DNA from: Antedon bifida
Lineage: Eukaryota; Echinodermata; Crinoidea; Comatulida; Antedonidae
DNA length: 64,000 bases
Direction: 5' to 3'
Assembly: GCA_963402885.1 (NCBI GenBank)
Contig: OY727098.1
Span: forward strand, 1,166,001 to 1,230,000
The translations under genes and the position numbers were made by a program. How positions within the stretch are numbered: the stretch's first letter is position 1; each line of letters opens with the position of its first letter. Below are positions 14,098-62,355 of the stretch, piece after piece. The notes under the pieces are model-generated. The model had not been told where the DNA came from. It searched no databases and saw nothing but the letters and a program-made list of their open reading frames with translations.

Positions 14098-15335
14098 TAG
14101 ATTGATTGATTGATTGATTTTATTTGATATTCATACATAAAAGTTAAAATATACAATGTATAAAAAGAATACCTGGATAACCCATTAAGTCGACAAAAAA
14201 GTAAACTTATTTCCAATGGGGTCCAATCCGTAATGACTGAAAAGTGAGTGGTTGGGCCTAGTACAATTATCGTTAAGTATGACTCAGTAAAAATGAAAAA
14301 ACAAGAAAATACATACAAGACAAGAAAACATCAAAAAAACAATATTAAAAATAGCTTAATTAAACTGAAATACCAAGCTGTTCATTATTAAAATATTCTT
14401 TAAGTTTTATTTTGAAGGTTGCATTATTTTGTATTGATTTGAGTGAATTGGGGAGCCTGTTCCAGTCACGGATACCTAAGAAATAAAAAGTCGTATCATT
14501 AACGCCAGTAGCCTTAGGAGTGACAAAATTAAATGTTGTACCCCTGGTGAAATGGTTGTGATGATCAGAAATTAACAAAAAGTTATCCTTAAGGAAAGAA
14601 GGCGTATTAAAGTTATAACGAATTTTGTGAACATAATTTAATCTTAAAAACTTATTTCTGAGGCTGACATTAAGAAACCCAAGATCGGAAAGCTCTTTGG
14701 CACCTATGTGAGACCTCGGACCAACATTTAAAATGAAACGTGCCATCTTGTTTTGGGCAGTTTGTAATTTATGTTTAAGATTCTTATTGACACCGCCGTA
14801 CCATGCCGAGGCAGAATAGTCAAATGTACATTGTATTAAAGCAGTGCTTAATAGTTTACGACATTTTTTATTCAAGCACGAACTTTGCCTATGTAAAAAC
14901 TTCAACCTTGACTTAACTTTACTGATAACACTAGTTGCAATGATATCACATGATACATATTGGTCTAAATCAATACCTAAATATTTAACTTGCTTAGTAC
15001 TTTTGATTCTACGGCCCATTAATTCTACAGAAAACTCTTTTACTTTGTTAAGCTTCGCTCTGCTACCAAAGATAATACTTTCGGTTTTGCCAACATGTAA
15101 AGATAATTTGTTTTCAGTTAACCAGTCCTGGCACTTAGCTAGGACAGTACTTAATTTATGAGCGATTTTGGTGGCATCGTGATGAGAATACAGAATCGTA
15201 GAATCATCAGCATAAAGCAATAATTGAACATCAGAATCAATACAAGAAGCAATATCATTTAAATAACATAGAAAAAGAATAGGGCCCAAGATGCTACCTT
15301 GCGGTACACCATGAGTAAGAGTTTGCACTTATACT
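14098..15335 (-). pseudogene. 5'-truncated non-LTR retrotransposon (reverse transcriptase C-terminal part)
   Basis: The open frame 14360-15328 (322 codons) starts just before the motif GVPQGSILGP and contains the catalytic YADDS, then a long C-terminal region ending DWNRLPNSLKSIQ. The finger/palm part before the B motif and the endonuclease are missing, as in typical 5'-truncated LINE insertions. The 3' end carries a (GATT)n microsatellite at about 14098-14120. It lies inside the 3.9-kb inverted-repeat element. The intact frame suggests a fairly recent insertion. Confidence 0.9.
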
Positions 15336-15959: not shown

Positions 15960-16202
15960 ATGTGCTCTCCCTGCCTCAGCACTAAGGCCCTGCCACAGCC
16001 TTTTGGGGTCGTTTCCAGCACATCACCAGATGCATTGATGTTGTCGCCTCATGATGTGTGGTGGAAAGGGGGACGTATAATTCTGTGAACCCCAAACACA
16101 GTGGCCGCATGCCTTTAACTCTATTCCACCGACCAGCGTGGGAATCGAACCCACGACATACGTGTTGTCAACACGACGCTCAGGCGACTGAGCTAACTGA
16201 TC
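15960..16202 (-). mobile_element. SINE with near-intact tRNA-Val(GAC)-like head
   Basis: Minus-strand 16202-16130 folds as a 73-nt cloverleaf: acceptor gatcagt/gctggtc, D stem gctc/gagc, anticodon loop ttgacaa (GAC), T arm gtggg-ttcgatt-cccac. There are two G-U pairs in the acceptor and one mismatch in the anticodon stem. The body continues to about 15960. Its position inside a mobile element, and the body that follows, argue for a SINE rather than a working tRNA gene. Confidence 0.65.
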
Positions 16203-16305
16203 ATTTTGATTTTAACAAGGTTAATATGATAGTTATGACGTACTGATGAATTACGTAATACACGTATAAATAGACTATTATCAGCTGATCATTCATGTAC
16301 TACTT

Positions 16306-19488: not shown

Positions 19489-19718
19489 TTACAAACCGAC
19501 CCTTTTGTTTCTAAAAACAAACTGTTTCAAATAATGCCGCTCATTGTACTTATTTACATCCTCTTCAATCTGACATCCTGCAGATGTATCAATGTGAAAT
19601 CCTTGACAGTCATCTTTTCTTAAACACTGTAAAGCACATCTCATGTACTCAACTCCAAACTCAGACACTCCAGAGTTCACTCCACGAGGCTCGGCAGATT
19701 GGAAATAGACACTCATTT
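19489..19718 (-). CDS. Gene C terminal exon: PAN/apple-like domain
   Basis: 76 codons to TAA. CALQCLRKDDCQGFH followed by AGCQIEE is the typical PAN/apple four-cysteine core. It joins CTLD5 in phase 1 as Glu-Met-Ser. Confidence 0.75.
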
Positions 19719-22700
19719 CTGAAAATATAAATGCCGTCTCATTTTAAACGTGACGTGCATAGGTAGGTTAAAATTATCATGAACTCACGCCACAAATGTA
19801 AACACGCACCAAGATAGAAAACACATTTTCAATCTATTGTAAAAGATGAATTATTTAAAATTCATTTGGTATCTGAAAGAAAAATACGGGCTAAAAAATG
19901 ATATTTTTGGAGCTGATTTTACTTTAGGCGTAAGGTGTAGGTTATGGCCGGTTTGCTTATAGAAATCCCAAATGTTAGAACGCCCAGAAATGTCATTTAG
20001 ACGCAGACGCATGAAACGTTTTCAATTTCATTTTGCCTTATTATTGACAATATAGAAAATATAGGATTGTCTTCGTTCGGCTGATCAAAACCTACTACTT
20101 GTTCCTAGAATTAACACCAAATCTTATGGACAAAAGTTATTTATGTTCTCTGCTGCTTCTCTTTGGAATTCTCTCCCTCGTCATTTTACTAAATCAACTT
20201 CTATTGCTATTTTTAAAAAAGAACTTAAAACGCATCTTTTTTAACATCCAATATAAGCGCCTTTGATTTTTACTTCGATTTAGTTGATTCTGGCGCTATA
20301 CAAATACCTAAATTATTATTATTATTATAAATCAGTTTTTTTTTGCTTGTATTTTCAATATTAAATCGAATTTTAATTTTAAAATGATACGGTATTTATT
20401 TACACCTCAAACTAATCACTTACCCTGCTCACAGATATATCCGTCAGAGTTTGAGTTCAAATCAGCGGTCGCATCAATGTCTAGGAGCATCATACCTTTA
20501 GTATCAATTCTGGTGCCAGCTATAACTTCTCTGCTAGTGCCCGGATCTTCCGGATTCCACGCAATCGAAGAATCAAACTCTTGTCCTGTTTCCCATTTCC
20601 AGTTTGTATCTTCGTTACCTAATCCCGCCTGACGTGATAATCCGATGGCGTATATACCTTCTTTGTAAACGGTATTAACGTAGCCAAGTACTGCAGTAAC
20701 TTCATCATTGGTAAGAAGAGTAGCAAGATATCCACCAGAAGACTCACATGTAGCTCTTGCATCAGACCACGTCATTATTGTTTCATAACGTAACGTCGTT
20801 ACAACATAACGTGACAACTTGTATAATAATTCAGCATAATCTTTGGAGAAATATAAGAAAGTGCATAAAAACCCATCTCACCTAATTAGAAAAACGTCAG
20901 TTGTAATAATTATTCTGTGATCTTTGTAAACATTTCGTCTGTGAAAACAAAGGCCCTCTCCATTATAAGAAGAATTACACAATGTATTGCATATTATTAA
21001 CAAGATAGTTTTTGTCTTAGTGTTTTTGGGTCATCTGTTTTGAGTCAGTCCTAGAATGTTTGAGGTTGAGGCGAGTAGGTGACAATTGTCACATCATTAT
21101 CTATCATGCGCAGTTGAAAACACTGACATAAATTACTTACTTTCTTCGCAAATGAAGCCCTTGAAGTACGTGTTCAAATCCTCGTCTTCATAAACGTCCA
21201 CCAATCCGACACTATTGGTAAAAATGGCAACACCAGCTCTTTTGCTCTTGATGCTATCGGGATCACCAGGAAGCCATGGAATAATAGAGGAATCGAATTC
21301 TTGGTTTGTTTCCCATTTCCAGTTTGTATCTTCGTTACCTAATCCCGCCTGACGAGATAGTCCGATGGCGTAACCACTTGCTCCGTAGACGGTATTAACG
21401 TAGTCGAGTACTGCAGTAACTTCATCATTGTTAAGAAAAGTAACAAGATAGCCACCAGAAGACTCACATGTAACCTTTGCGTCTGCCCATGTCGTTACGT
21501 GTTGTTCGTTAAACATCGTCACAATGTACCGTGACAGACTATACTGTAAAGCAGCATCGCCTTTGAAATAACAAAAATTAAATCACACATCAACATTTGA
21601 AGCATTGCTTTTCTTGGTTTATTCAATTGCCTTCGGCATACATTAATAGCAATTTGTTCAAACGTGTGGATTTTTTTAAACATAGGAACTGAAGAAGAAC
21701 AATGTCAAAGAATGAGAAAACTCTACAAACAGTATTAATGCAGAGGAAAATGTTGTTATCACTATTAACACCTTAAGATTGCCATTTCTTTTCCGTTTTC
21801 TAGGCATTTATATTTTTGGAGGAGGAATAATTGATCTCAATAAACTTACTTTCTTCACATATATACCCCTCTGAGTATGTGTTCAAAATGTTGTCTGCAT
21901 CAGTATCTATCAAATAGATTCCAGTAGTATGGATTCTCACAACAGCTGCTATATTGTTGTCGCTATTAGGATCATCAGCATGCCACGTAACAGAAGAACC
22001 AAACGTTTGTCCTATTTCCCATTTCCAGTTTGTATCTACGTATTTTTTTAATCCCGCCTGACGTGATAATCCGATGACGTATTGACCTTCTCCATAAACG
22101 GTATTAACGTAGTCGAGTACCACAGTCAGTTCATCATTGGTGAGAAGACTGACAAGATAGCCTCCAGAAGACTCACAGTCAGCCTTTGCGTCAGACCAGG
22201 TCATTGGCTGTTGGTCATTTAACATCTTGACAGTGTACAGTGACCATTTGTATTTCAATTCAGAATCACCTTTGGTAAACAATGAAAATACACATACTTG
22301 GATTTTTCTTTCAATACTTTCTATTATTCTGAACAAATGAGGATTGAGGTACCCGTCATATAAAATGGTTTATATTCAATTGTTAAGTTTGTAATTGTTA
22401 ATCATTTTTTATATTTGGATTAGAATAAATATTTCTAAATAAGTTTTTTAATGTAGGCTTATCGTTGTATATTTTTAATAGATTAATTTGCAATGCACAA
22501 ACAAAGAATGCTTTGTTTCAAGATTATGGTTCTTTGAGCTTTCCAGTCATTTCCGTTTTCAATAAGTAATTTTTGCATTTACAGGATATTAACGGATTGA
22601 GATAAACTGTATGATCACATTTGTCATTACAATACCGGATACCCTAAATGATACAATTTATAGATAAATATAAACGGCAACAAAACATAACTTTGGTCAA

Positions 22701-25208
22701 GTAGTAATAATTTTACTTACTCTGTTCACATATGTACCCATCTGAGTATGTGTTCAAAATATCGTCTGCATCAGTATCTATCAAATAGATTCCAGTAGTA
22801 TGGATTCTCACAACAGCTGCTATATTGTTGTCGCTATTAGGCTCATCAGCATGCCACGTAACGGAAGAACCAAACGTTTGTCCTATTTCCCATTTCCAGT
22901 TTGTATCTACGTATTTATCTAATTCCGCCTGACGTGATAATCCGATGACGTATTGACCTTCTCCGTAAACGGTATTAACGTAGTCGAGTACCACAGTCAG
23001 TTCATCATTGGTGAGAAGACTGACAAGATATCCTCCAGAAGACTCACAGTCAGCCTTTGCATCAGACCAGGTCATTTCTAGTTGATCATTTAACATCTTG
23101 ACAGTGTACAGGGACCATTTGTATTTCAATTCAGAATAATCTTTGGTAAACAATGAAAATACACATACTTGGATTTTTCTTTCAATACTTTCTATTATTC
23201 TGAACAAATGAGGATTGAGGTACCCGTCATATAAAATGGTTTATATTCAATTGTTAAGTTTGTAATTGTTAATCATTTTTAATATTTGGATTGGAATAAA
23301 TATTTCTAAATAAGTTTTTTAATGTAGGCTTATCGTTGTATATTTTTAATAGATTAATTTGCAATGCACAAACAAAGAATGCTTTGTTTCAAGATTATGG
23401 TTCTTTGAGCTTTCCAGTCATTTCCGTTTTTAATAAGTAATTTTAGTATTTACAGGATATTAACGGATTGAGATAAACTGTATGATCACATTTGTCATTA
23501 CAATACCAGATACCCTAAATGATACAATTTATAGATAAATATAAACGGCAACAAAACATAACTTTGGTCAAGTAGTAATAATTTTACTTACTCTGTTCAC
23601 ATATGTACCCATCTGAATTTGAGTTTATTTTACCATCTGCTGGTGTGTCCATCAAAACCATATCAGTAGTACGAATTCTCACGCCAGATGTAATAGTGAC
23701 ATTATTATCAGGATCAGCAGGATGCCACTGAATATTAGAACCAAACTCTTGTCCTGTTTCCCATTTCCAGTTTGTATCTACGTCTCCATCTAATCCCGCC
23801 TGACGTGATAATCCGATGGCGTATATACCTGCTTCGTAAACGGTATTAACGTAGTCGAGGACTGCAGTAACTTCATCATTGTTAAGAAAAGTAGCAAGAT
23901 AGCCACCAGAAGACTCACAGTCAGCCTTTGCGTCAGACCACGTCATTGGTTGGTCATTCATCTTCGTCACAGTGTACCGTGACCACTTGTATTCTAATTC
24001 AGCATCGCCTTTTGGAAGAAAATTAAATACATCAAAGTTATCGTTCTTGATTATTTATTGAAACATTTACTTTAATACATTACAGTAGGTAACCCTTTTT
24101 AATAATTGTTTTAAAAATGCTTTCAAGCACTATTTTGTGTCTTACTATTTTCGTACGTTAAAAAAAAAGTGTTGATAAGATAATTATTCTTAACAAGATA
24201 ATTAATCACGATATTGATTAGGTTCTTGCACCAGACCACAAACGTATCTGTTCTCTGTGTATAATTAAGACAATCAAACACAATGGTGTACGTCTTTGCG
24301 TAACGTTTACGTTGCGCGCGTAGGTTGCGTCGCTAGTGGGAAAACCACGCTTTTGATATACAAGCACAAGGCAAGAACACTGAAAAACATGGTACATCGC
24401 GGGTTGGGGGTACGCGGGGTGAATCAGGTCAAGTCTATGGCCGACTGGAAACTGATTTTGGGTTTACAACCCCCTCAAACAAGCCCAAAAATAAATAATT
24501 CTGGTTGTATGTTTGACTGGAATATGAAAAGTTCTGTAATAAAAATGAGAGTTGCTTTTTGTTGAAGTGACGTGTATTAGTGTTTCAATTTAATTTATTT
24601 CCACAATATAATAACATACATACAGGATAATAAATGCAATGAAGTAATAATGTGGGGGGGGGGGGGAGAGTCATATAAGTTAGAAAGACTTTAAGTTTGA
24701 CCCACCCGAAGATATAAAATTAAATGCGAATATGAAAAAGAAAAAAAATAGACATAAACTAATAATAAATAAAAGAAAACAAAGCTACAATCAATTTCTA
24801 TTAAAAACCATATTATCCGATCTTAACAGGTCTTATAAAATATATATATTTAACGTTCATCATATCTTAAAAGTAAATAGTTCCTGTATATACTAATTTA
24901 AATTTAGAAGTTGTAGATGCAGTTTTAATATCTACATGGATTGAATTCCATAATTTAGCTCCTTGGTATTTAATAGAGTTCTTGATCAATTTGTAACATT
25001 TGTCATATTTGCGCGCGTAAACTGATTCAAAATGATCTAGATTGCCCTGGAACGCCAAACCGAGCCCTTGGCCCCAGCCTATTGTTCCTCGCTTCGCTCG
25101 CAAAATACTCAATTATCGTAAATACTATAGATAAAAATAATAAAATAAACCTCTACTTATCACGTCCAGAATCCAAGGAAAAAAGACGATGAATTTCCAG
25201 CCAACCAT
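19489..25208 (-). CDS. Lectin gene C: secreted protein with five CTLDs and a PAN-like domain
   Basis: Predicted secreted poly-lectin. Exons: signal 25157-25208 (tentative), CTLD1 23592-24008, CTLD2 22721-23140, CTLD3 21850-22269, CTLD4 21141-21560, CTLD5 20424-20840, PAN-like 19489-19718. Each CTLD exon is 417-420 nt, begins after AG and ends A|GTAAGT or G|GTAAGT, giving phase 1-1 modules that join in frame. Each domain shows MTWSDA..(D/T)CESSGG, IGLSRQA, WKWE and GYICE/GFICE. The two inner CTLD cysteines and WND are absent. No transmembrane segment follows the PAN domain. The signal exon (MVGWKFIVFFPWIL...) differs from genes A and B and is the least certain part. CTLD2 and CTLD3 are recent duplicates. 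Ligand unknown; defence or mucus roles are inference. Confidence 0.8.
20070..20335 (+). pseudogene. LINE C-terminal fragment with (ATT)n tail
   Basis: The plus-strand frame (LLLVPRINTKSYGQKLF, then AASLWNSLPRHF) is a typical end of a LINE reverse-transcriptase ORF, with a stop near 20243. ggcgctatac and (ATT)n follow. It is inserted antisense in the gene C intron between CTLD5 and the PAN exon. Confidence 0.75.
20424..20840 (-). CDS. Gene C exon CTLD5
   Basis: Carries TCESSGG as first Cys, WNPEDPG at the sugar-site position and acidic loop LLDIDATADLN. Nearly identical to gene B CTLD4 and close to gene A CTLD6. Confidence 0.85.
21141..21560 (-). CDS. Gene C exon CTLD4
   Basis: Carries WLPGDPD and acidic loop LVDVYEDEDLN, ending GFICEES. 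Counterpart of gene B CTLD3 and gene A CTLD5. Confidence 0.85.
21850..22269 (-). CDS. Gene C exon CTLD3
   Basis: Carries WHADDPN and loop LIDTDADNILN. Almost identical to CTLD2, including upstream intron sequence. Confidence 0.85.
22721..23140 (-). CDS. Gene C exon CTLD2
   Basis: Carries an EPN triplet (WHADEPN) where CTLD3 has DPN; loop LIDTDADDILN. Confidence 0.85.
23592..24008 (-). CDS. Gene C exon CTLD1
   Basis: Carries WHPADPD and loop LMDTPADGKIN. Counterpart of gene B CTLD1. Confidence 0.85.
24590..25112 (-). pseudogene. LINE fragment in gene C first intron
   Basis: The minus frame 24867-25112 includes SIKYQGAKLWNSIHVDIK, typical of the end of a LINE ORF. Downstream sequence to 24590 is probable 3' UTR and includes a G run at about 24653-24667. 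Confidence 0.6.
25157..25208 (-). CDS. Gene C candidate signal-peptide exon
   Basis: ATG at 25208, then a short hydrophobic run (FIVFFPWIL). The donor A|GTAGAG leaves phase 1, matching the CTLD1 acceptor. Chosen because phase and distance fit; the sequence is unlike the paired signal exons of genes A and B, so another exon is possible. Confidence 0.4.
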
Positions 25209-25486
25209 TGTGATCGAAGCAATCCAACTTTAGTATAACGATAACGGTTATAACAAGACGTTGTATCAATTCCCACACGTTATCATATTTAGTACCGTAA
25301 TTGACGCTGCAAATTCATTATTCGCTATGTAGTAAAACATATAATACGCCAGTTATATAAGCATTATTTTGAATTAACGATTTTAAAAATTTATAATGTA
25401 GTGTGTTGTGGGAAAGATGCAAGGCCAACATATGGATAAGTAAATAATGTCATACCATGGTTATCAACTTTAACCATTCAAACAAA

Positions 25487-26345
25487 ATGCTAAATTTCCA
25501 ATTATGTTATTATTCTATGCACAGAAAACGTGTTTTAAATAATTCATGTAAGTTTTTTAAATTTTAAATTTAAAAAGGCCTATATTACATAATAAAACTT
25601 TACTTTTAAGAGAATAATAACGCAAACAATTTTAATAATGCTATAGTTATCAATTTTAACTATTCAAAAAAGATGCTAAATTTCCAATGATGTAATTATT
25701 CTATGCACAGAAAACGTGTTTTAAATAATTCATGTAAGTTTTTTAAATTTTAAATTTAAAAAGGCCTATATTACATAATAAAACTTTACTTTTAAGAGAA
25801 TAATAACGCAAACAATTTTAATAATGCTATAGTTATCAATTTTAACTATTCAAAAAAGATGCTAAATTTCCAATGATGTAATTATTCTATGCACAGAAAA
25901 CGTGTTTTAAATAATTCATGTAAGTTTTTTAAATTTTAAATTTAAAAAGGCCTATATTACATAATGAAACTTTACTTTTAAGAGAATAATAACGCAAACT
26001 AAATTTTAATAATGCTATAGTTATGAACTTTAAATATTCAAAAAGATGCTAAATTTCCAATGATATAATTATTCTATGCACAGAATTTTTTCATTTTTTT
26101 CATTTATTCATTTAGCATCCATTCAACAATACATTTAAAATACATAACAAAGAAAAAAACAAACAATTGGAATATTAAAATTGATTAAAACCAAAGTGAA
26201 TTGATGCAAGGACGACCCATAAAATCGACATGTCAATTTATTTCCAATGGGTTATTTAAAACGTGTGTTAAATAATTCATGTAAGTTTTCAATTAAAAAA
26301 TGCCTATATATTACATAATAAAACTTTACTTTTAAGAATAAACGC
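25487..26345. repeat. 186-bp tandem repeat array, interrupted
   Basis: atgctaaatttccaat starts at 25487, 25673, 25859 and 26045, exactly 186 bases apart. Each unit holds gcacagaaaacgtgttttaa and aaaggcctatattacataat. A fifth partial unit resumes at about 26262 after an insertion. Confidence 0.9.
26085..26262 (-). mobile_element. LINE 3' end fragment inserted in the tandem array
   Basis: Splits the array's last unit. cgacatgtcaatttatttcc followed by aatggg resembles the 3' region of the LINE at about 14190-14220 (cgacaaaaaagtaaacttatttccaatgggg pattern). Confidence 0.5.
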
Positions 26346-27352
26346 AAACATAATACTAAATTATCAATAATAATATAATAATACAAAAGGAAAAACAACG
26401 CTAGACGATGAAACGCCAGTTGTTGAGAATAAAACATTTTAGGTTTCGAAACGTTCTGTAAGTTCGCTTACAATGTTTTTTACAAAAAGAAATTTTGTTA
26501 TACCAAAAGGCGTGGTTTAAATAATCTAAATTAAAAATATCATACAATCGCAGTGAAAATATTAAATACTTGTTAGCACACAGTGTGATATCATCTCTAG
26601 GACAATACATATTCAAAAATGCAATCGAGTATCTATAGTTTTAAAAGACATTTTGGGAATGAAGAAGTGTGACACGTTTTGTGCCTGTTCCTTGCGTTAG
26701 CCATGCTAAGAAGTCTAGGCTGATCATACTAGTATAGAAATTTTTGTTTACTTGTATTTATTGGGACTTAATTCTAAAATGGTTCAATACATAACAAGTG
26801 CAATATTAAGTATAATGAATACAAAGAACATTATTGAAAGATCACAAATATATCTAATATAACTACAATAAAGCCCTTATCATAATCTAAGAAATGAGTT
26901 AAGGTGGTTGGTTTTTCAATCTAAAGATCATCTAATAAAATACCGTATTATACTCTCTTTCTTTATCCCTCCGATTACTACCGTAATCGCTTTAAGTTAA
27001 TGTCGTCATAGAGGTAACATTAGGGTAAATCAATATTTCAATTTTAGTTTTTAAAAAAGCATAGATAAATATACTTATGCATGATTTAATGATGCTAATA
27101 CAATGCAAATAGTATGGAAAAATATTATTGTTCAGGCAGTTAACAGTTAAGGGAAAAGGCCGTTTCAAGAGGTACCTCTGATGACAAATGTTCACTGGAA
27201 ACCTTTTCCAAACTCCTATTTCATGAAACTGTATTAATTCTATGTTTTGTTTTGTTAACATTCTTTAGTTCGGGCTGTGTTTGAACTATTTAATTATAGT
27301 CATGTTTTTGTCACTCAAACGCATCTCATCTGAGCATTGGGGAATTGTAATG

Positions 27353-27603
27353 TTATTCATATAAAAGTCCGACTTTCTTGTTTCTAAAAACAAACTGTTT
27401 CAAATAATGCCGATCATTGTACTTCTTTACATCCTCTTCAATCTGACATCCTGCAGATGTATCAATGTGAAATCCTTGACAGTTATCTTTTCTTAAACAA
27501 TGTAAAGCACATCTTATGTACTCAACTGTCATTTTAACTCCAAACTCAGACACTCCAGAGTTCACTCCACGAGGCTCGACAAATTGGAAATAAACACTGG
27601 TAT
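27353..27603 (-). CDS. Gene B terminal exon: PAN/apple-like domain
   Basis: Core CALHCLRKDNCQGFH and AGCQIEE. Ends KKVGLLYE, so the reading continues past the point where A and C stop. Confidence 0.75.
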
Positions 27604-30600
27604 CTGAAAGACAAATACGGACTCGGAAAATGATATATGTTGGAGTTGATTTTTGATGTGTAGGTTGTAGCCGGTTTGCTTATAGAAATCCCAAATGTTA
27701 CAATGCTCAGAAATGTCATTTGGAAATAAACACGCAGACGCATGAAACGTGTTCAATTTCATTTTGACTTATTTTTGACAATATAGAAATTATCGGATTA
27801 GAAATTATAAATCGTTTTTTTTTTGCTTGTATGTTTATATTTCCAATATTAAAACCTGATTGATTTTTTTTAATGATACGGTAGGCCTTACTTGGTACAT
27901 ATTTACACCTCAAACAAATCACTTACCCTGCTCACAGATATATCCGTCAGAGTTTGAGTTCAAATCAGCGGTCGCATCAATGTCTAGGAGCCTCATACCT
28001 TTAGTATCAATTCTGGTGCCAGCTATAACTTCTCTGCTAGTGCCCGGATCTTCCGGATTCCACGCAATCGAAGAATCAAAATCTTGTCCTGTTTCCCATT
28101 TCCAGTTTGTATCTTCGTTATCTAATCCCGCCTGACGTGATAATCCGATGGCGTATATACCTTCTTTGTAAACGGTATTAACGTAGCTAAGTACTGCAGT
28201 AACTTCATCATTGGTAAGAAGAGTAGCAAGATATCCACCAGAAGACTCACATGTAGCTCTTGCATCAGACCACGTCATTATTGTTTCATAACGTAACGTC
28301 GTTACAACGTACCGTGACAACTTGTATAATAATTCAGCATAATCTTTTGAGAAAAATAAAAAAGTGCATAAAAACCCATCTCACCTAATTAGAAAAACGT
28401 CATTTGTAATAATTATTCTGTGATCTTTGTTAACATTTCGTCTGTGAAAACAAAGACCCTCTCCATTATAAGAAGAATTACATAAGGTACTGTATTGCAT
28501 ATTATTAACAAGATAGTTTTTGTCTTAGTGTTTTTGGGTCATCTGTTTTGAGTCAGTCCTAGAATGTTTGAGGTTGAGGCGAGTAGGTGACTATTGTCAC
28601 ATCATTATCTATCATGCGCAGCTGGAAACACTGACATAAATTACTTACTTTCTTCGCAAATGAAGCCCTTGAAGTACGTGTTCAAATCCTCGTCTTCATT
28701 AACGTCCACCAATTTGACACTATTGGTAAAAATGGCAACACCAGCTCTTTTGCTATTGATACTATTGGGATCACCAGGAACCCATGGGATAATAGAGGAA
28801 TCGAATTCTTGGTCTGTTTCCCATTTCCAGTTTTTGTCATTGTTTATTTCTAATCCCGCCTGACGAGATAGTCCGATGGCGTATCCACTTGCTCCGTAGA
28901 CGGTATTAACGTAGTCGAGGACTGCAGTAACTTCATCATTGTTAAGAAAAGTAACAAGATAGCCACCAGAAGACTCACATGTAACCTTTGCGTCTGGCCA
29001 TGTCGTTACGTGTTGTTCGTTAAACATCGTCACAATGTACCGTGACAGACTATACTGTAAAGCAGCATCGCCTTTGAAATAACAAAAATTAAATCACACA
29101 TCAACATTTGAAGCATTGCTTTTCTTGGTTTATTCAATTGCCTTCGGCATTCATTAATAGCAATTTGTTCAAACGTGTGGATTTTTTAAACATAGGAACT
29201 GAAGAAGAACAATGTCACAGAATGACATAACTCTACAAACAGTATTAATGCAGAGGAAAATGTTGTTATCACTATTAACACCTTAAGATTGCCATTTCTT
29301 TTCTAGGCATTTATATTTTAGGAGGAGGAATAATTGATCTCAATAAACTTACTTTCTTCACATATATACCCATCTGAGTATGTGTTCAACATATCCTCTG
29401 CATCAGTATCTATCAAATAGATTCCAGTAGTATGGATTCTCACAACAGCTGCTATATTGTTCTCGCTATTAGGATCATCAGCATGCCACGTAACAGAAGA
29501 ACCAAACGTTTGTCCTATTTCCCATTTCCAGTTTGTATCTACGTCTTTATCTAATCCCGCCTGACGTGATAATCCGATGGCGTATTTGCCTTCTCCATAA
29601 ACGGTATTAACGTAGTCGAGTACCACAGTCAGTTCATCATTGGTGAGAAGACTGACAAGATATCCTCCAGAAGACTCACAGTCAGCCTTTGCATCAGACC
29701 AGGTCATTTCTAGTTGATCATTTAACATCTTGACAGTGTACAGGGACCATTTGTATTTCAATTCAGAATCACCTTTGGTAAACAATGAAAATACACATAC
29801 TTGGAAAATCTTCTATAAACAATTCTTTCTGTTTATTTCTACTTTCTAAACAATCATCATATAATATGGTTCATATTCAATTGTTTTCAAAAGTTTGTAA
29901 CCCAGGGTGTTTAACCATTTTTAATATTTGGATTAGAATAAATATCTCTAAATAAATTTTTTAATGTAGGCTTATCGTTGTATATTTTTAATAGATTTAT
30001 TTGCAATGCACAAACAAAAAATGCTCCATTGCAAGATTATGGTTCTCTCAGCTTTCCAGTCATTGCCGTTATCGATAATTTTAAAATTTACAGGATTTGT
30101 CATTAAAATACCGGATACCCTAGATAATACAATTTATAGATAATAAAGGGCAACAAGAAATAACTTTTGGTCGATTAGTAATAATCTTACTTACTCTGTT
30201 CACATATGTACCCATCTGAATTTGAGTTTATTTTACCATCTGCTTGTGTGTCCATCAAATCCATATCAGTAGTACGAATTCTTATGCCAGCTGTAATAGC
30301 GACTTCAGTATTAGGATCATAAGGATTCCACGCAATATTAGAACCAAACTCTTGTCCTGTTTCCCATTTCCAGTTTGCATCTACGTCTCTATCTAATCCC
30401 GCCTGACGTGATAATCCGATGGCGTATATACCTGCTCCATAAACGGTATCAACGTAGTCGAGGACTGTTTTCAATTCATCCTTGGTATGAAAACTAACCA
30501 GATAGCCTCCAGAAGACTCACAGTCAGCCTTTACGTCAGACCACGTCATTGGCTGTTGGTCATTTAACATCTTGACAGTGTACCGGGACCACTTGTATTC

Positions 30601-30846
30601 TAATTCAGCATCGCCTTTGGAGAACAATGAACATTTGTTTTGAGCAATTCTTCCATAAATATATTCGAGAAAAGAGGATTGTCTTTCCAACAATCTGAAC
30701 ACCAAGATTTATTGGAAGACAATGGGAATACATTTTGCGATTTTTAAGTCTATAACCAAGTTTCTTTAATTGAAAGGTTATTACTTACTGAATCCAATGA
30801 TAAACTGCACAGAGAAGAAACATAGGTGAATCTTTGAATAAAACAT
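27353..30846 (-). CDS. Lectin gene B: secreted protein with four CTLDs and a PAN-like domain
   Basis: Paralogue of genes A and C. Exons: signal 30789-30846, CTLD1 30195-30614, CTLD2 29353-29772, CTLD3 28649-29071, CTLD4 27927-28343, PAN-like 27353-27603. The signal exon (MFYSKIHLC...FIIGFS) has a clear hydrophobic core and ends phase 1 at A|GTAAGT. All internal exons are multiples of three in phase 1-1, about 660 residues in total. The PAN exon has a small insertion (VKMT) before its first cysteine and a longer tail than A or C. Together with its introns, the stretch holding CTLD2-CTLD4 is almost identical to gene C about 7.5 kb away. No membrane anchor; predicted secreted. Function unknown. 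Confidence 0.85.
27927..28343 (-). CDS. Gene B exon CTLD4
   Basis: Carries WNPEDPG and loop LLDIDATADLN. Counterpart of gene C CTLD5, with matching flanking introns. Confidence 0.85.
28649..29071 (-). CDS. Gene B exon CTLD3
   Basis: 423 nt, one codon longer than its gene C counterpart. Carries WVPGDPN, loop LVDVNEDEDLN and GFICEES. Confidence 0.85.
29353..29772 (-). CDS. Gene B exon CTLD2
   Basis: Carries WHADDPN and loop LIDTDAEDMLN. Matches gene C CTLD2/CTLD3, present once here. Confidence 0.85.
30195..30614 (-). CDS. Gene B exon CTLD1
   Basis: Carries WNPYDPN and loop LMDTQADGKIN. The helix region differs from its neighbours (FHTKDELKTVLDYVDTV). Confidence 0.85.
30789..30846 (-). CDS. 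Gene B signal-peptide exon
   Basis: ATG at 30846; hydrophobic core LCFFSVQFIIGF; phase-1 donor A|GTAAGT. The last 12 residues match the gene A signal exon. Confidence 0.75.
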
Positions 30847-33352
30847 TGTTGACAGTATATGAAGCCGAAGTGCCGATAACAAGTTATAAGTAATATGTAC
30901 AGGAATGTTTAAAGTGATAGAATATATAAAGGAATTATTTATTTTTTTAATAGCTTCCTCCGTGGTTTATTGATTCAAAATTAATATTTCATTTTCGAAA
31001 TGATAACAAGCTACACGAATCAATTACAATAACTGTAGAAACGAAAGTAGGATTTTCATTAACAATAAAATATATAAATTGTGGTTTTTTAACACAATAC
31101 AATAATATCTTTGATATATAATAATAGACACGCTATCTCCATGCGACGTGCTTTACGTATGAAAACAATTATACTTTACTTTATTTAGAATTTCTTCCTT
31201 TTTTGTTATTGTTTTATTAATATCCAGTCTGCGATTATTACAATAATATCTACAATTAAATACACAATGAAAGGTAGAAATCGTCGTTCTAATATTATTC
31301 AAAATTTAATTTATCTAGAATTTTATAGCTATTTCTACTTTTTAAACGAGTATACGTTTTGCTCATTAATTAATTTTTATTCGATTTTCCATTAATACCA
31401 GCTCATACACCTTTTTTTAAATAAGGAATTATTTTTTTAATTTGTAACTCCACCTTATCTTTTAAAATTGAAGTATTGTTAGATCTTTTTATTTTTGTTT
31501 ATTTTAACTTTCTCTACTCGCTCATTCAATCCATCGCCAATCCAAAGCGTCGATTTTATTTATTTATGGTATGTTTTGGTATTATCGTTGTTGTTTGTTA
31601 TTTAATCAAATAATTTTTTTTATTCATTCATGGCAGCAGTGTTATACAGTACACTTGCCTTGCTTAGATCGTGTTGCAGCTACAGATAAACCCTTTGATC
31701 CATCCTGTTGCCATGGTTATACTTTTTAGTCAATACTTTTCGAGTTAGTCATAGAAAATTATCTCCCACTAAAGGTTCCGTCGTTTTAAACCTTGGTGCC
31801 ATCTTAACGCTTTGTAAGAAGGAAAGAACAAATGGTATAAGTGCTTTTGCTTGCATTTATTATAGTTTAATTGGCGAATACGGTATTAAAATACAATAGT
31901 AAAATAGATCAACAATTTTAAATCCGTAAAAAACCCAATGATTGATATCAATTTCTAAACTGACGCTAAACAACTGTATAAATGTAGGCCTATTTTTTGT
32001 CAATAAGTGAGTCAATAAAAAGGACAAACATACCAAAATAGAGACTACCAGAGTGCATAACCTAAAGAATAACAAAACAAAAATGCTTAAATAAACGATT
32101 ACAAATAAAATTAATTATTTTTTAAAATATTTATCTCGTAAACTGGACGGCAACTCACACCTACAGACGAGGAAAGTAAAATAGAGCATTTCAAACAATC
32201 CGTTTTATTTATGAATAAAAACTAAGGTCATTTTACTTTTAAAGTCTGAGAGTTGATATCAATGCATTTAAGAGTTTGAAATTGTATAATATCAAAGGTA
32301 TATTTTTTAGTACTTTATGATAATATACCAGCTATAGCATTATATCTTTTTTAATTGGGGTGTTGTACAAATGGTGCATAAAACAAATGGAAAAAGAATT
32401 AATTAAATCGTGACATGATTATCAACTTTAATTATGGTATTGTTGTATTGTTTCATTACTTTTTGATATTGTTGACCATTGATAGAAATTAATAGATATA
32501 TGATATACTGAAACAATATTCAAACATACTATAAAATAATGCTATTATTCTATGCGCATAAAGCGAAAATACTTTCTTTTTAAAGGGAACATTATGATTT
32601 GTTTTTGAATTCAAAACATGAATTAAATAACACACAAAAATGGTGCAGTAAAACTAATTGAACCAGGATAACCAACAATGTTTTTTAAAACATTAATTAC
32701 TTAAATTATTAATAATTAAGTTAATTAAATTATATTATTTGAAAATAATATAATTTGTTTCCAATAGAGTTCTTAGTAACAATTATGAGTCAAGTGTTTA
32801 ATAGTAGTTTTGATCCCTGTGGTCGTCTTACTCGTGCCTCTTAGGCCTATAGGTATTGCTTTTATTTTAATTTATGCAGCCTTGATGTTACTATTAATGC
32901 TACGTTATCTATTGACCATCACTAAACAAATGATATATAAATAAGTATATACAATTGCAACAATTGTACTAGTAGTAGAGTTCCATACGGAGTTTTGACT
33001 TAATATTAGTAAAAAGATAAATATGTTGGCACATATGGCGTTTCATACATACTAAAAAAAATAAATAAAAAAGACAACAAATACAGACTTGGTGTCTACC
33101 AATGTACTTTAAGAGCATAATGCACTTAAATGCGGTGTTTTATAGTCTACAGGTCTTTAAAAATATATTGCCTTTATGATGTCAGAATAAATATACACTA
33201 TAATATACATCATTTAACAATTATTAGTCTATATACTTTTAATAAGCTAAAACTTTTAATAAGCGTAAATTGTGGTCAAACTGTCTGTTTATTGAGACGT
33301 TTTTTCTCTGTGATCACAGTACAATTAACTGAATAATAGCTGGTTTGTTATA
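30847..33352. other. Intergenic between lectin genes B and A
   Basis: Strongly AT-rich. It must contain the gene B promoter and gene A 3' UTR, but no gene or element could be supported, apart from a decayed relative of the 10156-10385 MITE near 31640-31715. Confidence 0.45.
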
Positions 33353-33582
33353 TTACAAACCGACTCTTTTGTTTCTAAAAACAAACTGTTTCAAATATTG
33401 CCGTTCATTGTACTCATTTAAATCCTCTTCAATCTGACATCCTGCGGATGTATCAATGTGAAATCCTTGACAGTTATCTTTTCTTAAACACTGTAAAGCA
33501 CATCTCATGTACTCAACTCCAAACTCAGACACTCCAGAGTTCACTCCACGAGGCTCGGCAGATTGGAAATAAACACTCATAT
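33353..33582 (-). CDS. Gene A terminal exon: PAN/apple-like domain
   Basis: Core CALQCLRKDNCQGFH and AGCQIEE, stop directly after VGL as in gene C. Joins CTLD6 as Asp-Met-Ser. Confidence 0.75.
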
Positions 33583-36500
33583 CTGAAAATACAAATGTCG
33601 TCTCATTTTAAGCGTGACGTGCATAGGCATATGTTAAAATTATTCTGAACTCACGCCCACCAATTTGAACATGCACCAAGATAGAAAACACAATCATTTT
33701 CAATCTAGATGAAGAATTTAAAATTCTGTTATCTTTCTTCAGTTTAGAAATTATCAGATTAATTCGCAATTGTAATATTAAGTGATGGGTTTGTGTACTA
33801 AATGAAGGAAAAATTACTTTTAAATAGGTTTGTATCTTTCTGAATTTGAAAGATTACGAAACGAATTAAATACTGTGTAAGTTTGTTTTCATTTCTTAAA
33901 ACAATGGAGATTCACTTACCCTGCTCACAGATATATCCATCAGAGTTTGAGTTCAAATCATCGGTCGCATCAATGTCTAGGAGCATCATACCTTTAGTAT
34001 CAATTCTGGTGCCAGCTATAACTTCTCTGCTAGTGCCCGGATCTTCCGGATTCCACGCAATCGCAGAATCAAACTCTTGTCCTGTTTCCCATTTCCAGTT
34101 TGTATCTTCGTTTATGTCTAAACCAGCCTGACGTGATAATCCGATGGCGTAGATGCCGTTCTGAACAGAATTAACATGCTGGAGTACTGCAGTAACTTCA
34201 CCATTGGTGAGAAGACTAGCAAGATAGCCACCAGTAGACTCACAGTCAGCCTTTGCATCAGACCACGTCATTGTTGTTCCAGAATGTAATGTCGTTAAAA
34301 TGTACCGTGAACGCTTGTGCACAAATTCAGCATAACCTTTGGAAATTAAGGTTCATATTGTAAGATCAATTAATAGCTACTGGAGATTAATTACTACAAA
34401 TACAGCTCTACTCTAATATTTGAAAACACGGTGTGAATAAAAATGGTTCTTATAATTACTTTCTTCGCAAATGAAGCCCTTGAAGTACGTGTTCAAATCC
34501 TCGTCTGCATCAACGTCCACCAACTCAACACTATTGGTAAAAATGGCAACACCAGCTCTTTTGCTATTGATGCTATTGGGATCACCAGGAACCCATGGGA
34601 TAATAGAGGAATTGAAGTCTTGGTCTGTTTCCCATTTCCAGTTTTTGTCATTGTTTATTTCTAATCCCGCCTGACGAGATAGTCCGATGGCGTATCCACT
34701 TGCTCCGTAGACGGTATTAACATAGTCGAGTACTGCAGTAACTTCATCATTGTTAAGAAGGGTAACAAGATAGCCACCAGAAGACTGACAGTCAGCTCTT
34801 GCATCAGACCACGTCGTTTTCTTTGTGTCGTCTAACATTGCTACAGTGTACCATGACAAACTGTAATATAATCTTGGATCACCTAAAATACATATTTAAA
34901 AAACGTTGTTTTTCTTAATTAGTTATTTCTTAATAACAATTCAATATTTAACTGAAACTGTTTTAAAACAAAAAAGTCTTTACGAAGTTATAAAACATCT
35001 ATAACGACATTAATATACCAATCATACAGCAACGCAATGTTTTATGACTAAAAATGTTTGTTTCGTATCCATGATAAACTTACTCTGTTCACATATGTAT
35101 CCATCTACGTTTAAACTCGCCTCTGCTTTCCTGTCTTTCAACACAGCATCCTCAGTACGAATCCTAACGCCAGCTGTTTTGTTGATGTCAACATTAGGTT
35201 CATCGGGGTACCAGCTGATATAAGAACCAACAAACTCTTGTCCTATTTCCCACCTCCAGTTTGTATCTTCGTTACCTAATCCCGCCTGACGTGATAATCC
35301 GATGGCGTAAATGCCTGCTCCATAAACGGTATTAACGTAGTCGAGTACCACATTCAGTTCATCATTGGTAAGAAGACTGACAAGATAGCTTCCAGAAGAC
35401 TCACAGTCAGCTTTTGCATTAGACCACGTCATTGATGTTTGATCCTTTAACATCTTTACAGCGTACCGTGACCACTTGTATGTTAATTCATTATCTAAAT
35501 AAGTACAGTAAATATAATGTATAAACAATTAGGTTAATGATGAATGAGAATTCTGTATATTGCCTTTTTAGTCTGAAGATTGATTTAACTATCAATGTAT
35601 AATAAATTGATAAAGTTACAACTCAGGCACTGTGTTAACAATCGGTTTAAAAAATACTACAGTATACTTTTGCCATTATCGGTACTACTAAAAAAGTAAA
35701 ATGGTACTTAAAATTGGTCCAATATATGCAGAAATGTGATTTCAACGGATTTTAAGTTTATAATTTATCTCATAAACAAAAACATTATTTAAAAATGGGG
35801 CCTAAAATGCAAAATGTTTTTCGTGTAGAAGTGGCTTTCAGACTGTAGAGTTTTTGATGGCGTAATAATTTAAACTTTAATTCACTTACTCAGTTCGCAT
35901 ATATAACCGTCTGCGTTCAAACTAGCCTCTGTATCAGTGTCCATCAACACAGAATTAGTAGTATGAATTCTCACGCCAGCTTTACTCGTTACATTAGTGT
36001 CGGGATAGTTGCGATTCCACGCAATATTAGAACCAAACTCTTGTCCTACTTCCCACTTCCAGTTTGTATCTACGCTTCCATCTAATCCCGCCTGACGTGA
36101 TAATCCGATGACGTATACACCTGCTCCGCAAAAAACGTTAACATAGTCACGCACTAAATTCAGTTCATCATCGGTAAAAAAGCTAACAAGTTCATAGCCT
36201 CCAGAAGACTCACAACCAGCCTTTGCGTCAGACCACGTCGTTGTTGATTGGGTATTCAACTTCGTCACAGTGTACCATGACCACCTGTAGATTAATTCAC
36301 CATATTCTTTGGAAGACAATGAAAATAGAGACATTTGTGATGTTCGTGAATTCTCGTGGAATTTGCTATAAACGTTTACTATCAATAAGAAACTACTATC
36401 ATGAAACAGGATCATGGTGTATGGATAGTCCTACCTACGATGGTGGAACTCGAACCTAACATACAAACCTAATAATAAAAATTGTTAAGTTTGCAACTTG

Positions 36501-38426
36501 TCTTTGGTAATTCAATAATACTATTATATAACTAAGACAACAAATTGTCTGCCACTTTTAATAAGCCTTGAACGCATAACAACAAAGACGGGATTTTTAC
36601 TATAATCTCATGATACCAGTGACTTCAATTTTCATTATCGTTACTAATAAACAAAATCAAAATAATATCAAACATTTTTCTACTTTGTCCTCTAACGGAT
36701 TTGGACTGTTATTTAATTTAAGTTTAAATAATACCGTAATATCAACAAATAGAAATATAATGATATGCATATGGGTTGGTAGAATAACCTAACCATGTTT
36801 GTGATTTTCTCTTGGAAAGAAAAAAAACTTACTATATTCACATATATACCCATCTGAGTTTGAGTTCAAAGTAGTCTCTGCATCACTGTCCCTCAAAGCA
36901 ATATCCGTAGTATCAATTCTCACGACAGTTTTACTCGCTACGCTATTGTCAGGATTAGGAGGACTCCATGTAATAATAGAAGAATTAAAATTCTGTTCTG
37001 TGTCCCACTTCCAGTTTGCATCTACGTCTTTATCTAATCCCGCCTGACGTGATAATCCGATAGCGTATACACCTTCTCCGTAAACGGTATTGACGTAGTC
37101 GAGGACTGTTGTCAATTCATCATTTGTAAGAAAACTAAGAAGATAGCCTCCATAATACACACAGTCAGCTTTTGCGTCAGACCACGTCATTGCTGGTTGA
37201 TCATGTAACATCTTCACAGTGTACCGGGACCACTTGTAATTTAAATTACCTTTGGAGAAAAAAACATAAAACAAGATAGCATTACGCTGTAATGTTCTTG
37301 CAATATATAAACAATTATATTTATTGTGAAGGTTATTGTAGATTAAATCATGGAAGAATTATTTAGTGTATGTAATTGTAATTTTATTTAGCTTTTTTAA
37401 TATTTTTTTTTTTATATTATATATTTCAAATTCAATACTACCTACCTTGTTGAAGTAGTACCTTATTAATTTATATTTTGTAATTGTTTATAAAAGATGA
37501 AAGAAAAAAAATAAATGTTTACGTTGAAGTAATACTTCCATGATCTAATTTTTTGGTAGACGAGTAATGATTCCTCAATAAACTTACTCTGTTCACATAT
37601 ATAACCATCTATGTGTGACCTTAATGTATCCTCTGCATTATAGTCTTTCAACTTAACATCAGAAGTATGAATTGTCACGCCAGCTATTTCATGTTTGTTA
37701 CTGTTAGGCTCATCATGGTACCACTCAATATTAGAACCAAACTCTTGTCCAATTTCCCACCTCCAGTTTGCATCTACGTCTTTATCTAATCCCGCCTGAC
37801 GGGATAATCCGATAGCGTATACACCTTTTCCGTAAACGGTATTAACATGCTGGAGTACTGCAGTAACTTCACCATTGGTAAGAAGACTGACAAGATATCC
37901 ACCAGAAGACTTACAGTCAGCTTTTGCGTCAGACCAGGTCATGTTTGGCTTGTACTCCAACATCTTCACAGTGTACTGGGACCACTTGTACTGTAATTTA
38001 TCATCGCCTTTAGAAGACAATCAACCAAAATCAACGCTGTCATTCTTGCTGTATTAGCAGTTACTTTCATAGCAATGACGATAACATTTTTAATATAAAA
38101 TAGTCATAAACTTCTGGTTGAGATTTATCCCATCAAGTTTGATAATTAAATTTATATAAAATAAATGTAATAATAGTTTTTAAACTTCTTTCGTCTTTAA
38201 TTATACATTTCCAATAATGCAAAGTAACATATGTTAAAGTATTTCACTTTAACAATATTGGAAGTAACTGGATCAATCTATCAAGATGGTCTTAATTTGA
38301 AATATAAAGCCTAACATACATTCTAGTTTTAATGTTATTGATGAACATTTATAAAGCCTACTTACTGAATCCAATGATAAATTGTACAGAGAAGAAACAT
38401 AGGTACTGGATCATTGAAAAAAACAT
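33353..38426 (-). CDS. Lectin gene A: secreted protein with six CTLDs and a PAN-like domain
   Basis: Largest of the three. Exons: signal 38366-38426, CTLD1 37588-38007, CTLD2 36833-37249, CTLD3 35890-36306, CTLD4 35084-35494, CTLD5 34460-34882, CTLD6 33920-34336, PAN-like 33353-33582; about 930 residues. All junctions are phase 1. The signal exon starts MFFSMIQYL and ends QFIIGFS. CTLD1-4 have diverged from each other and from B and C, while CTLD5, CTLD6 and PAN are close to the last three modules of B and C. EPN triplets occur in CTLD1 and CTLD4 only. CTLD3 has one extra cysteine. No transmembrane region, so secretion is expected. Ligand and role unknown. Confidence 0.85.
33920..34336 (-). 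CDS. Gene A exon CTLD6
   Basis: The helix/loop before IGLSRQA is altered (QHVNSVQNGIYAIGL). Carries WNPEDPG and loop LLDIDATDDLN. Confidence 0.85.
34460..34882 (-). CDS. Gene A exon CTLD5
   Basis: DCQSSGG, WVPGDPN, loop LVDVDADEDLN, GFICEES. Its donor is the weaker A|GTAATT rather than GTAAGT. Confidence 0.85.
35084..35494 (-). CDS. Gene A exon CTLD4
   Basis: Has WRWE instead of WKWE, an EPN triplet (WYPDEPN) and shortened acidic loop LKDRKAEASLN before GYICE. 411 nt. Confidence 0.85.
35890..36306 (-). CDS. Gene A exon CTLD3
   Basis: GCESSGGYELVS carries one extra residue. An extra Cys (NVFCGAG) precedes VIGLSRQA, leaving an odd cysteine count. Carries WNRNYPD and loop LMDTDTEASLN. Confidence 0.85.
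36833..37249 (-). CDS. Gene A exon CTLD2
   Basis: DCVYYGGYL replaces the usual CESSGG. WKWD, WSPPNPD, loop LRDSDAETTLN. Confidence 0.85.
37588..38007 (-). CDS. Gene A exon CTLD1
   Basis: DCKSSGG, WRWE, EPN triplet (WYHDEPN), loop LKDYNAEDTLR. Confidence 0.85.
38366..38426 (-). CDS. Gene A signal-peptide exon
   Basis: ATG at 38426, with a second Met four codons on. Hydrophobic core ends QFIIGF, phase-1 donor A|GTAAGT. Confidence 0.75.
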
Positions 38427-40469
38427 GTTGACTTGAGTGAGTTGAAATCGAAGTAAAGAACATATATGAAATAGAATATCAAAAATTCCATCAACTGTGG
38501 TGTATTGATTTGACATTAATGTTATAATTGGGAAATAACAACGTACACGAATCAACTACAGTTATCAATAAATGAACAAAAGACAAGTAGAGTTTTCATT
38601 TACAATAAAAAAAATTATTATTGCCTATTTCCTCTGCAATTTATATATTTTTTTATATTTTTCTTAAAAATGTGCCGATCTCAAACGTTGGAACTCATAC
38701 CATGAAGGAACATAACCCCTTGTTTGTTGTCGAATGCATTAAGTGTATCACATGTCTTCAAATAGTGCTACCGTATCTAGAAAGGACACGGCACTTGCCA
38801 ACCAATTACACTATCCAAACACAGTACTTTCATTTTTCTATAGATTTATATTTTACGTTAATCAATCGCAGTTCAACTCAATTATGTATACAATGAGTAA
38901 AGCAGAAATAGTCGTTTAACAAAATCAATGTAAATTATATAGTCATTTATACTTTTTAAATGACTTTTTGCTTATTATTCGATTCTCATATAAAAACCAT
39001 TTTCTATTATATAAATAATGAATGTTTTTGAGGTACAAACGGCTTGAATTGAATGATAAAAGATTTGAATCAAATTAAATAAAAGGTAGGCTATGTCTAC
39101 GTTCAATTCACCTTGAAACAATAATATTTATATGTTTTTTTAAAATAATATATTAGATACTATATTTATTTGGATTTTATAAACACACCTACTTATAAAC
39201 GACAAATCAATCCAGGCCTAGCTAGCCTAGAAAGGCAGCGATACGATTACGAAACTTCGACAGGCAACTGGAACTCATCTAGGCTAATCCTGTTTTTTCC
39301 AACAATGAGATATGTTTCCATTAAATAATCAAAATCATACAAACGATTTAAAGTGTTTTTTTTTGTTTTTTTTATAATTTGTCAGAGAACTTTTATCACG
39401 GAAGATGGCGCTTGTATTATACTTTACTCCTCCTAATCAGTATATAACCACATATTAAGGCAGAAAAGATCACGGCTAAAACTGCTAGTATACTATTATT
39501 ATCATTATGTACCTTTGCTACATAATACATACTTTTCGTTTTAATTTACCGCCTACCTAGCGCTGCCTTTTCAACAAAAGACGTGTGCATATCAGAATTG
39601 AAGAGAATTGTGAGTTTTGATATAATATCCCAAACGACGATACTCACATATTGAAAAATGAGAATAGAGATGATCCAAACAGTTAAATTTAAAACCAAAT
39701 TAATTGTGGTCAGTTCTTTTTTTTCATATCATAATTTTCATGTCATTTTCACCACGACTGACACACTCTATCCTCCTCTTTTTTTTTAAACAGACCTAGT
39801 ACTGATTCCTTATAACACGCATTATACTTCAAAACATATCAGAAGCTTGGTTTAATTGTAATTTTAATAGAAGTTCGTTTTAAGAATTAGAAATGAAAAT
39901 ACTATTTTGTATTGTTAAAATTGCTATATGTTATTGATTGTGAAATAAACTGTATACTCAATTATTTACTATTCAAAAACATTTATTAATTTATACAAAA
40001 ACATTAGTTTAAAAAAAGTACACTACAATGTACAGTAATTACATTATCCACCGCTTATGGAAGTTAATTTAAATTCATATAATAGAAAAATTGATTTGGT
40101 GTACAATGAAATACATTTTGTTTTTAATATATGGCTAGGCTGAAGTTTGGTCAGCGATTATTTGCTGGTGGTTAGGTCATTTATTTCTCAACAGTCAATC
40201 ATCAAATCACAATTTCTGCTCTGGGACTGACCGGTCAAGACATGTAATATGTCCAGAGTCGACTAGTCTCAGTGTCATGCTCTTTTTGAAAGTTAACCCT
40301 GACCATAGACAGCATAACGGCACAGCTAAGAAACTGTTTGTTTATTTTGGAAGTCCATGAGATGGCGAAAAGAGACATTGTACCCTTTATCTCGATGTAA
40401 GGCTTTCTAATTCAATTGTTTATACAGATAGACAACCAGTCCCTATCATCTTGCGATAATAAACCTTAA

Positions 40470-40530
40470 TTTGTCTATGAAATATGCTGCCATTAGGTTT
40501 TGCTTTTTTTGTTCTTCATTTTATATTTGA
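40470..40530 (-). pseudogene. Partial duplicate of the ASH2L last-exon end
   Basis: tgtctatgaaatatgctgcc with attaggtttt and a downstream ttcttcatttt block resembles 40815-40875 (tgtctatgaatatgctgcca, ctaggttttt, cttcattttgtacatga). Frame not kept. Confidence 0.5.
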
Positions 40531-40538
40531 TACAGTAG

Positions 40539-40679
40539 CACTCCTATTAAGGGAACACACAGGGAACCAAAAGGTGTCCCCTTATAAGAGTTATCCCTTT
40601 AATAAGGGTTAGCCATAGTGTTAACATATATTTTCCCCCTTATTCATGCCATGGAAAAGTGTACCTTTAATAGGAGTGT
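40539..40679. mobile_element. Small MITE
   Basis: cactcctattaagggaacac at the left pairs with gtgtacctttaataggagtg at the right. 141 bp, no coding capacity. A related fragment (ccccttaataagagtgtccc) is at about 62545. Confidence 0.6.
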
Positions 40680-40814
40680 CCACTTAATGTATCCTGAATA
40701 GGGATGTCCTAAAAAAAGAAGTTCAATCAAAGTAGTACAATAACTACTAGAGCATTCATACCAGCTTGACTGTAAGATTGTCTTTCCATGCCCAATAGCC
40801 ACTTGTTCTTCTGT

Positions 40815-55666: not shown

Positions 55667-62355
<6,689 letters not shown>

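Follow-up and report, generated by a model that had tools for sequence, protein, structure and literature searches.

Tandem arrays of C-type lectin-like domains (CTLDs) are well known from the mannose-receptor family (MRC1/MRC2, LY75 and PLA2R), whose members are anchored in the membrane and combine Cys-rich and FNII domains with eight to ten CTLDs. The spicule-matrix and other skeletal C-type lectins of echinoderms are CTLD proteins of the skeleton, and those of sea urchins are reported mostly to bear repetitive acidic stretches (PMC7351957). The multi-CRD (carbohydrate-recognition domain) C-type lectins of bivalves, such as CfLec-3, CfLec-4, AiCTL-9 and Cnlec-1, several of which are secreted, carry three to four tandem CTLDs with differing xPx motifs on different domains; the accessible portion of that account makes no mention of a PAN domain (PMC12842671), and the likeness to the genes described here is one of description only. 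The present work concerns three tandem genes, A, B and C, found in a 64,000-nt stretch of the genome of the crinoid Antedon bifida (contig OY727098.1, handle C11; C11:1166001-1230000, referred to below as the window, with no N in it), whose predicted products consist of four to six CTLDs closed by a small PAN-like domain.

The three gene-like units lie in tandem on the minus strand. A search of the animal's own genome (315.6 Mb in 27 contigs) with one CTLD, in which the best candidates were scored, identified 15 exons of the window as coding for CTLDs (E<=0.01), six in A, four in B and five in C, which are the numbers given by an earlier first-pass annotation of this stretch. Each CTLD, named below by gene and position (A1 to C5), occupies a single exon of 411-423 bases in phase 1-1, with an AG acceptor and a GT donor in 15/15, and a terminal four-cysteine exon closes each of the three arrays. 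The claims of one exon per domain, of a common strand and of CTLDs followed by a terminal domain are thus borne out in A, B and C, and the outer coordinates proposed for the cluster are exact (19489 is the stop of C and 38426 the ATG of A). The 15 exons contain no stop codon and their CTLDs are 49-97% identical among themselves, which is beyond chance. The predicted exons are as follows.

38366..38426, minus strand: gene A, first exon, carrying the start codon and a predicted signal peptide; phase-1 end at GTAAGT, homologous to exon 1 of B
37588..38007, minus strand: gene A, CTLD 1 exon; EPN and LKD motifs
36833..37249, minus strand: gene A, CTLD 2 exon; NPD and LRD motifs
35890..36306, minus strand: gene A, CTLD 3 exon; YPD and LMD motifs, one extra Cys, under the Pfam cut-off
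35084..35494, minus strand: gene A, CTLD 4 exon; EPN and LKD motifs
34460..34882, minus strand: gene A, CTLD 5 exon; DPN and LVD motifs, counterpart of B3 and C4
33920..34336, minus strand: gene A, CTLD 6 exon; DPG and LLD motifs, counterpart of B4 and C5
33353..33582, minus strand: gene A, last exon, carrying a four-Cys PAN-like domain and the stop; AATAAA at 33293
30789..30846, minus strand: gene B, first exon, carrying the start codon and a predicted signal peptide; homologous to exon 1 of A
30195..30614, minus strand: gene B, CTLD 1 exon
29353..29772, minus strand: gene B, CTLD 2 exon
28649..29071, minus strand: gene B, CTLD 3 exon
27927..28343, minus strand: gene B, CTLD 4 exon
27353..27603, minus strand: gene B terminal exon, PAN-like domain and stop; no Pfam match
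23592..24008, minus strand: gene C, CTLD 1 exon; signal exon not found upstream
22721..23140, minus strand: gene C, CTLD 2 exon; it and C3 are recent tandem duplicates
21850..22269, minus strand: gene C, CTLD 3 exon
21141..21560, minus strand: gene C, CTLD 4 exon
20424..20840, minus strand: gene C, CTLD 5 exon
19489..19718, minus strand: gene C terminal exon, PAN-like domain and stop; AATAAA at 19305

If spliced as predicted, these exons would encode proteins of 931 (A), 662 (B) and 774 residues (C, without its start exon and with a placeholder base), strongly acidic in all three cases (net charge -58, -49 and -66, respectively). Exon 1 of A and exon 1 of B are 88% identical over 75 bases. Only 8-10 residues separate the last Cys-Glu of one CTLD from the Ser-x-Tyr of the next, and the predicted proteins stop right after the terminal domain; none of the three has a membrane-type hydrophobic stretch past residue 25 or a C-terminal anchor, in agreement with the earlier statement that an anchor is lacking.

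These features set the locus apart from the systems described above. The mannose-receptor family shares the tandem CTLDs, and its members are among the best sequence and fold matches in the PDB to the window CTLDs, but the window genes have a PAN-like end and no anchor; they were not assigned to that family, since the signal exon of A and B directly precedes a CTLD exon and no hydrophobic segment follows later. Membership among the spicule-matrix C-type lectins was likewise rejected, because the predicted proteins are made up of CTLDs and the terminal domain only, with several CTLDs, a PAN-like end and no repetitive tail. The component domains are well known; what appears uncommon is their CTLD(n)-PAN order, together with the poly-CTLD expansion. 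It had been proposed that no described family has this order, and no description of it appeared among the papers listed by searches of an open-access library; the order is nevertheless not unique to the window, since a CTLD-PAN family is present in the same genome.

At E<=10 the genome yields 19 matches to the PAN exon. Three are in the window and 16 at other places, the two lowest-ranked with E 0.11-0.12. A family CTLD exon lies upstream on the same strand in 12 of these 16 (L012, L013, L014, L015, L016, L017, L018, L020, L022, L023, L024 and L025). Such exons were sought only within a flank of about 1.5 kb, beyond which further ones are possible; within it L019, L021, L026 and L027 have none, and at L019 a CTLD match containing a stop is located 3.5 kb upstream. 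The resulting genes (a cluster at 13.73 Mb of contig C16, C8 at 32.22 Mb, C11 at 3.20 Mb, C15 at 12.98 and 14.66 Mb, C13 at 10.23 Mb and C10 at 22.10 Mb) have the same domain order, share the four cysteines of the terminal exon and show a varied but recognisable CTLD signature, IGLSRQAGL...W. They differ in that one CTLD is seen within the flank (two ahead of the PAN exon at 3.20 Mb of contig C11, L033), compared with four to six in the window, and the CTLDs of the loci on contigs C16 and C8 (L034, L017/L018) have extra cysteines, unlike those of the window. On contig C16, homologous signal-like exons are predicted ahead of the CTLD in 3/3 of the genes covered (the fourth is beyond the end of L034), and the gene at L033 has one signal-exon candidate in front of it. 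In a tree of 28 CTLDs, from which one short row was dropped and in which second copies of the same place were not used, the 15 window CTLDs form one side of a branch with support 97/97. Taken together, the sequence comparisons place the window genes in a CTLD-PAN family as its poly-CTLD expansion, and the ancestral unit was probably signal-CTLD-PAN, lengthened in the window cluster. The CTLD repertoire of this genome is large: there are at least 158 Lectin_C matches, many of them in tandem clusters, for example at C9 4.26-4.34 Mb, C9 32.81-32.86 Mb, C7 8.04-8.06 Mb and C13 11.08-11.14 Mb.

Profile and structure checks place the window domains in the C-type lectin-like domain superfamily. All 15 exons match Pfam Lectin_C at E<=1 (best 5e-9), and four of the five longer CTLD open reading frames (ORFs) scanned singly pass the curated cut-off, which A3 fails (18.5 vs 22.6 bits). 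An AlphaFold model, built with an alignment of the 15 window rows, has a pLDDT (predicted local distance difference test) of 70.6 and a pTM (predicted template modelling score) of 0.72, and a fold search with it matched 305 PDB chains at E<=0.001; the 50 matches listed are CTLDs or CTLD-bearing proteins. Canonical CTLDs have two disulfides, between cysteines C1 and C4 and between C2 and C3 in the canonical numbering. In the window, cysteines C1 and C4 are invariant in 15/15 CTLDs and C2 and C3 are absent from 15/15, while A3 carries one extra Cys, so that the canonical disulfide set is incomplete; the assignment to the superfamily stands because CTLDs without the C2-C3 pair are known.

The variation among the 15 domains peaks in the ligand loop. 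Columns 96-109 (the xPN loop) have a mean entropy of 1.74 bits per column, compared with 1.64 in columns 115-129 and 0.75 elsewhere, and the xPN loop is the most variable of 129 stretches of 14 columns, a stretch that was picked after inspection of the profile. The xPx triplet is EPN in three CTLDs (A1, A4 and C2), DPN in five, DPG in three, DPD in two, NPD in one and YPD in one; QPD does not occur.

The history of the cluster can be read to some extent from its repeats. In the CTLD tree A5, B3 and C4 cluster by position, as do A6, B4 and C5, which suggests that the last two CTLDs are older than the split into three genes; this reasoning would extend to the PAN exon as well. Between B and C, identity is 89.1% over 2,890 aligned bases, introns included, and inside gene C the stretch from CTLD C1 to C2 is repeated as C2 to C3, with 90.5% identity over 1,320. 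Array length changes through tandem duplication of single phase 1-1 exons plus their introns, and the C2/C3 pair and the comparison of B with C show exon duplication in progress, a clean case of how a multi-domain lectin is lengthened. In 12 chosen pairs out of 105, the ratio of nonsynonymous to synonymous substitution rates (dN/dS) is 0.31-0.87 in 11, and only B1-C1, at 1.35, nominally exceeds 1. On the whole the CTLDs appear to be under constraint, and diversifying selection is without proof.

The best explanation of these observations, held tentatively and at somewhat less than even odds, is that the genes encode secreted, multivalent recognition lectins with a PAN-like cap. The products of A and B, and of C if it is expressed, would be secreted rods of abutting CTLDs, perhaps rigid, each closed by one small four-cysteine PAN-like domain. 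Each CTLD would contribute one ligand face, and the joining of four to six slightly different faces would provide avidity and mixed specificity; it is because differing faces are joined that the protein probably acts extracellularly as a multivalent recognition or agglutinating lectin. The site of action might be the coelomic fluid, mucus or the body surface, possibly in defence, and the PAN-like domain may serve for docking to protein or glycan. In its favour stand the CTLD fold, the predicted signal exons of A and B, the lack of a later hydrophobic segment, the CTLD-PAN family elsewhere in the genome, the variability peak in the xPN loop, where the motifs differ while LxD is invariant, the short spacing between domains, and the precedent of the bivalve lectins with their differing motifs. 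Several findings weigh against this explanation. In sugar-binding C-type lectins, Ca2+ site 2 is made up of EPN or QPD, a Glu and WND. The place of WND is occupied by LxD in 15/15 window CTLDs, x being K, R, M, V, L or I, and after the xPN loop the 15 share no conserved Glu, so the window CTLDs lack the full set of features of the Ca2+-dependent sugar-binding C-type lectins. Such an incomplete motif set makes Ca2+-dependent sugar binding doubtful, and Ca2+-dependent binding by these CTLDs is uncertain in general. Most of the long loop (the ligand loop) has a pLDDT <50 in the CTLD model, and the loop shows no excess of dN/dS (0.54, vs 0.56 in the N-terminal half and 0.40 in the C-terminal part; these are means over all pairs, and mean dS is 0.98 at the C-terminus). 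The stretch of exon 1 of gene A (96 bases) has no third copy in the genome, the two matches at E<=10 in the DNA search being A itself and B, and no clear homologue of it (best E 0.06) was detected in the 3.3 kb that separate CTLD 1 of C from the stop of B. The PAN profile cut-off was passed by none of the three window exons and none of 10 paralogous exons (best 20.0 vs 21.4 bits). The PAN/apple-like label given to the terminal domain is therefore weak, though plausible. The four Cys are conserved in 16/16 aligned terminal-exon rows (16 of the 19 exons known); for the fold, which in PAN domains is a helix packed on a small sheet around a Cys core, the structure model has low confidence, and matches to apple-domain proteins are weak. 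That the terminal exon is an unrelated four-cysteine module and not a PAN domain is the less probable reading, at perhaps one chance in four. Finally, the strong acidity of the A, B and C proteins suits a matrix role equally well. In the main rival explanation, such proteins could be occluded in or around the calcite endoskeleton, binding mineral or matrix instead of recognising microbes, which is rather unlikely although echinoderm skeletons contain CTLD proteins, two of them reported by a proteomic study of the skeleton of the feather star Anneissia japonica (PMC7351957), and the window proteins are acidic and without a membrane anchor. Nothing links the window genes to those two proteins, with which no sequence comparison was made; mineral binding would not call for a variability peak in the ligand loop, and no repetitive acidic or Pro/Gly-rich region is apparent by eye. 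Less likely still are surface mucus, adhesive or gamete-coat proteins, in which the array would cross-link glycoproteins of the animal's own secretions or take part in egg-sperm recognition, a use to which multivalent CTLD rods with a docking domain would be suited, to judge from their anatomy. In order of likelihood, the recognition lectin comes first, the acidic skeletal or matrix protein second and the mucus, adhesive or gamete-coat protein third.

A signal peptide had been ascribed to all three genes, and predicted signal exons support this for A and B; for C the exon search and the genome search found none, and a loose signal-exon scan of the 3.3 kb upstream of C gave one candidate, no more than expected from 200 block shuffles (mean 1.66). 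Consequently, C may be 5'-truncated, have an unrelated first exon, or be read through from B. The chances are about equal that gene C is not independent, either because its exons are used only through read-through from B, which would skip the PAN exon of B and stay in frame since all CTLD exons are in phase 1-1, or because it is a 5'-truncated copy without product. The missing signal exon, the recent common origin of B and C, the matching exon phases and the presence upstream of C of a 186-base tandem array and an ORF resembling a transposon remnant all favour this, while each of the six exons of C has an open frame and consensus splice sites, the stop of C is followed by a polyadenylation signal, and a non-homologous first exon, farther upstream or otherwise disguised, is possible. 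Read-through, if true, would supply C with a signal peptide. It would also form part of a much bolder and quite improbable scheme in which the cluster acts as a modular lectin repertoire: CTLD exons of A, B and C, interchangeable because all are in phase 1-1, would be combined in varied numbers and orders and capped by one of the three PAN-like exons, so that individuals would have a changeable set of secreted arrays; arrays varying by individual or by splicing, if true, would amount to a new invertebrate recognition repertoire. The 186-base repeat itself occupies 25460-26085, between genes B and C (3.4 copies, 96% matches), and the short ORF (24867-25112, minus strand) is one that we take to resemble the C-terminal end of a non-LTR (long terminal repeat) reverse transcriptase.

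The mitochondrial contig of the genome (C27) points to an echinoderm, most likely a crinoid. It is read by the echinoderm code, with AAA at the second Asn position of the conserved COX1 motif DRNVNTTF. Its COX1 strand, 15,844 bases long, is made up of 26.4% A, 46.8% T, 11.4% C and 15.4% G, compared with 24.38, 47.79, 11.16 and 16.68% over 15,872 bases in the feather star Cenometra bella (PMC9176372). With genes named by eye, nad4L is found between nad4 and nad5, whereas in the echinoid order it is placed between cox1 and cox2. Crinoids are the sister group of the other echinoderms, and the recognition lectins proposed here would add to them a secreted lectin family of unfamiliar domain order.

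The remainder of the window contains several features of other kinds. A reverse-transcriptase ORF lies at 14363-15328 on the minus strand (RVT_1, E 2.8e-15), and two long ORFs of 522 and 420 residues, at 1768-4661 on the same strand, have no Pfam match at E<=0.1 and perhaps belong to a transposon. The stretch 40001-44000 exhibits strong strand asymmetry (GC skew -0.33 and -0.54) and includes a stretch whose complement reads as Arg/Glu/Lys repeats (ORF at 42380-42691). An exon of an ASH2L-like gene is located at 47747-48064 on the minus strand (PF21198, E 8.7e-25), a protein-kinase fragment at 60161-60460 on the plus strand (PF00069, 21.4 bits, under the cut-off), and a tRNA-Val gene at 16129-16203 on the minus strand.

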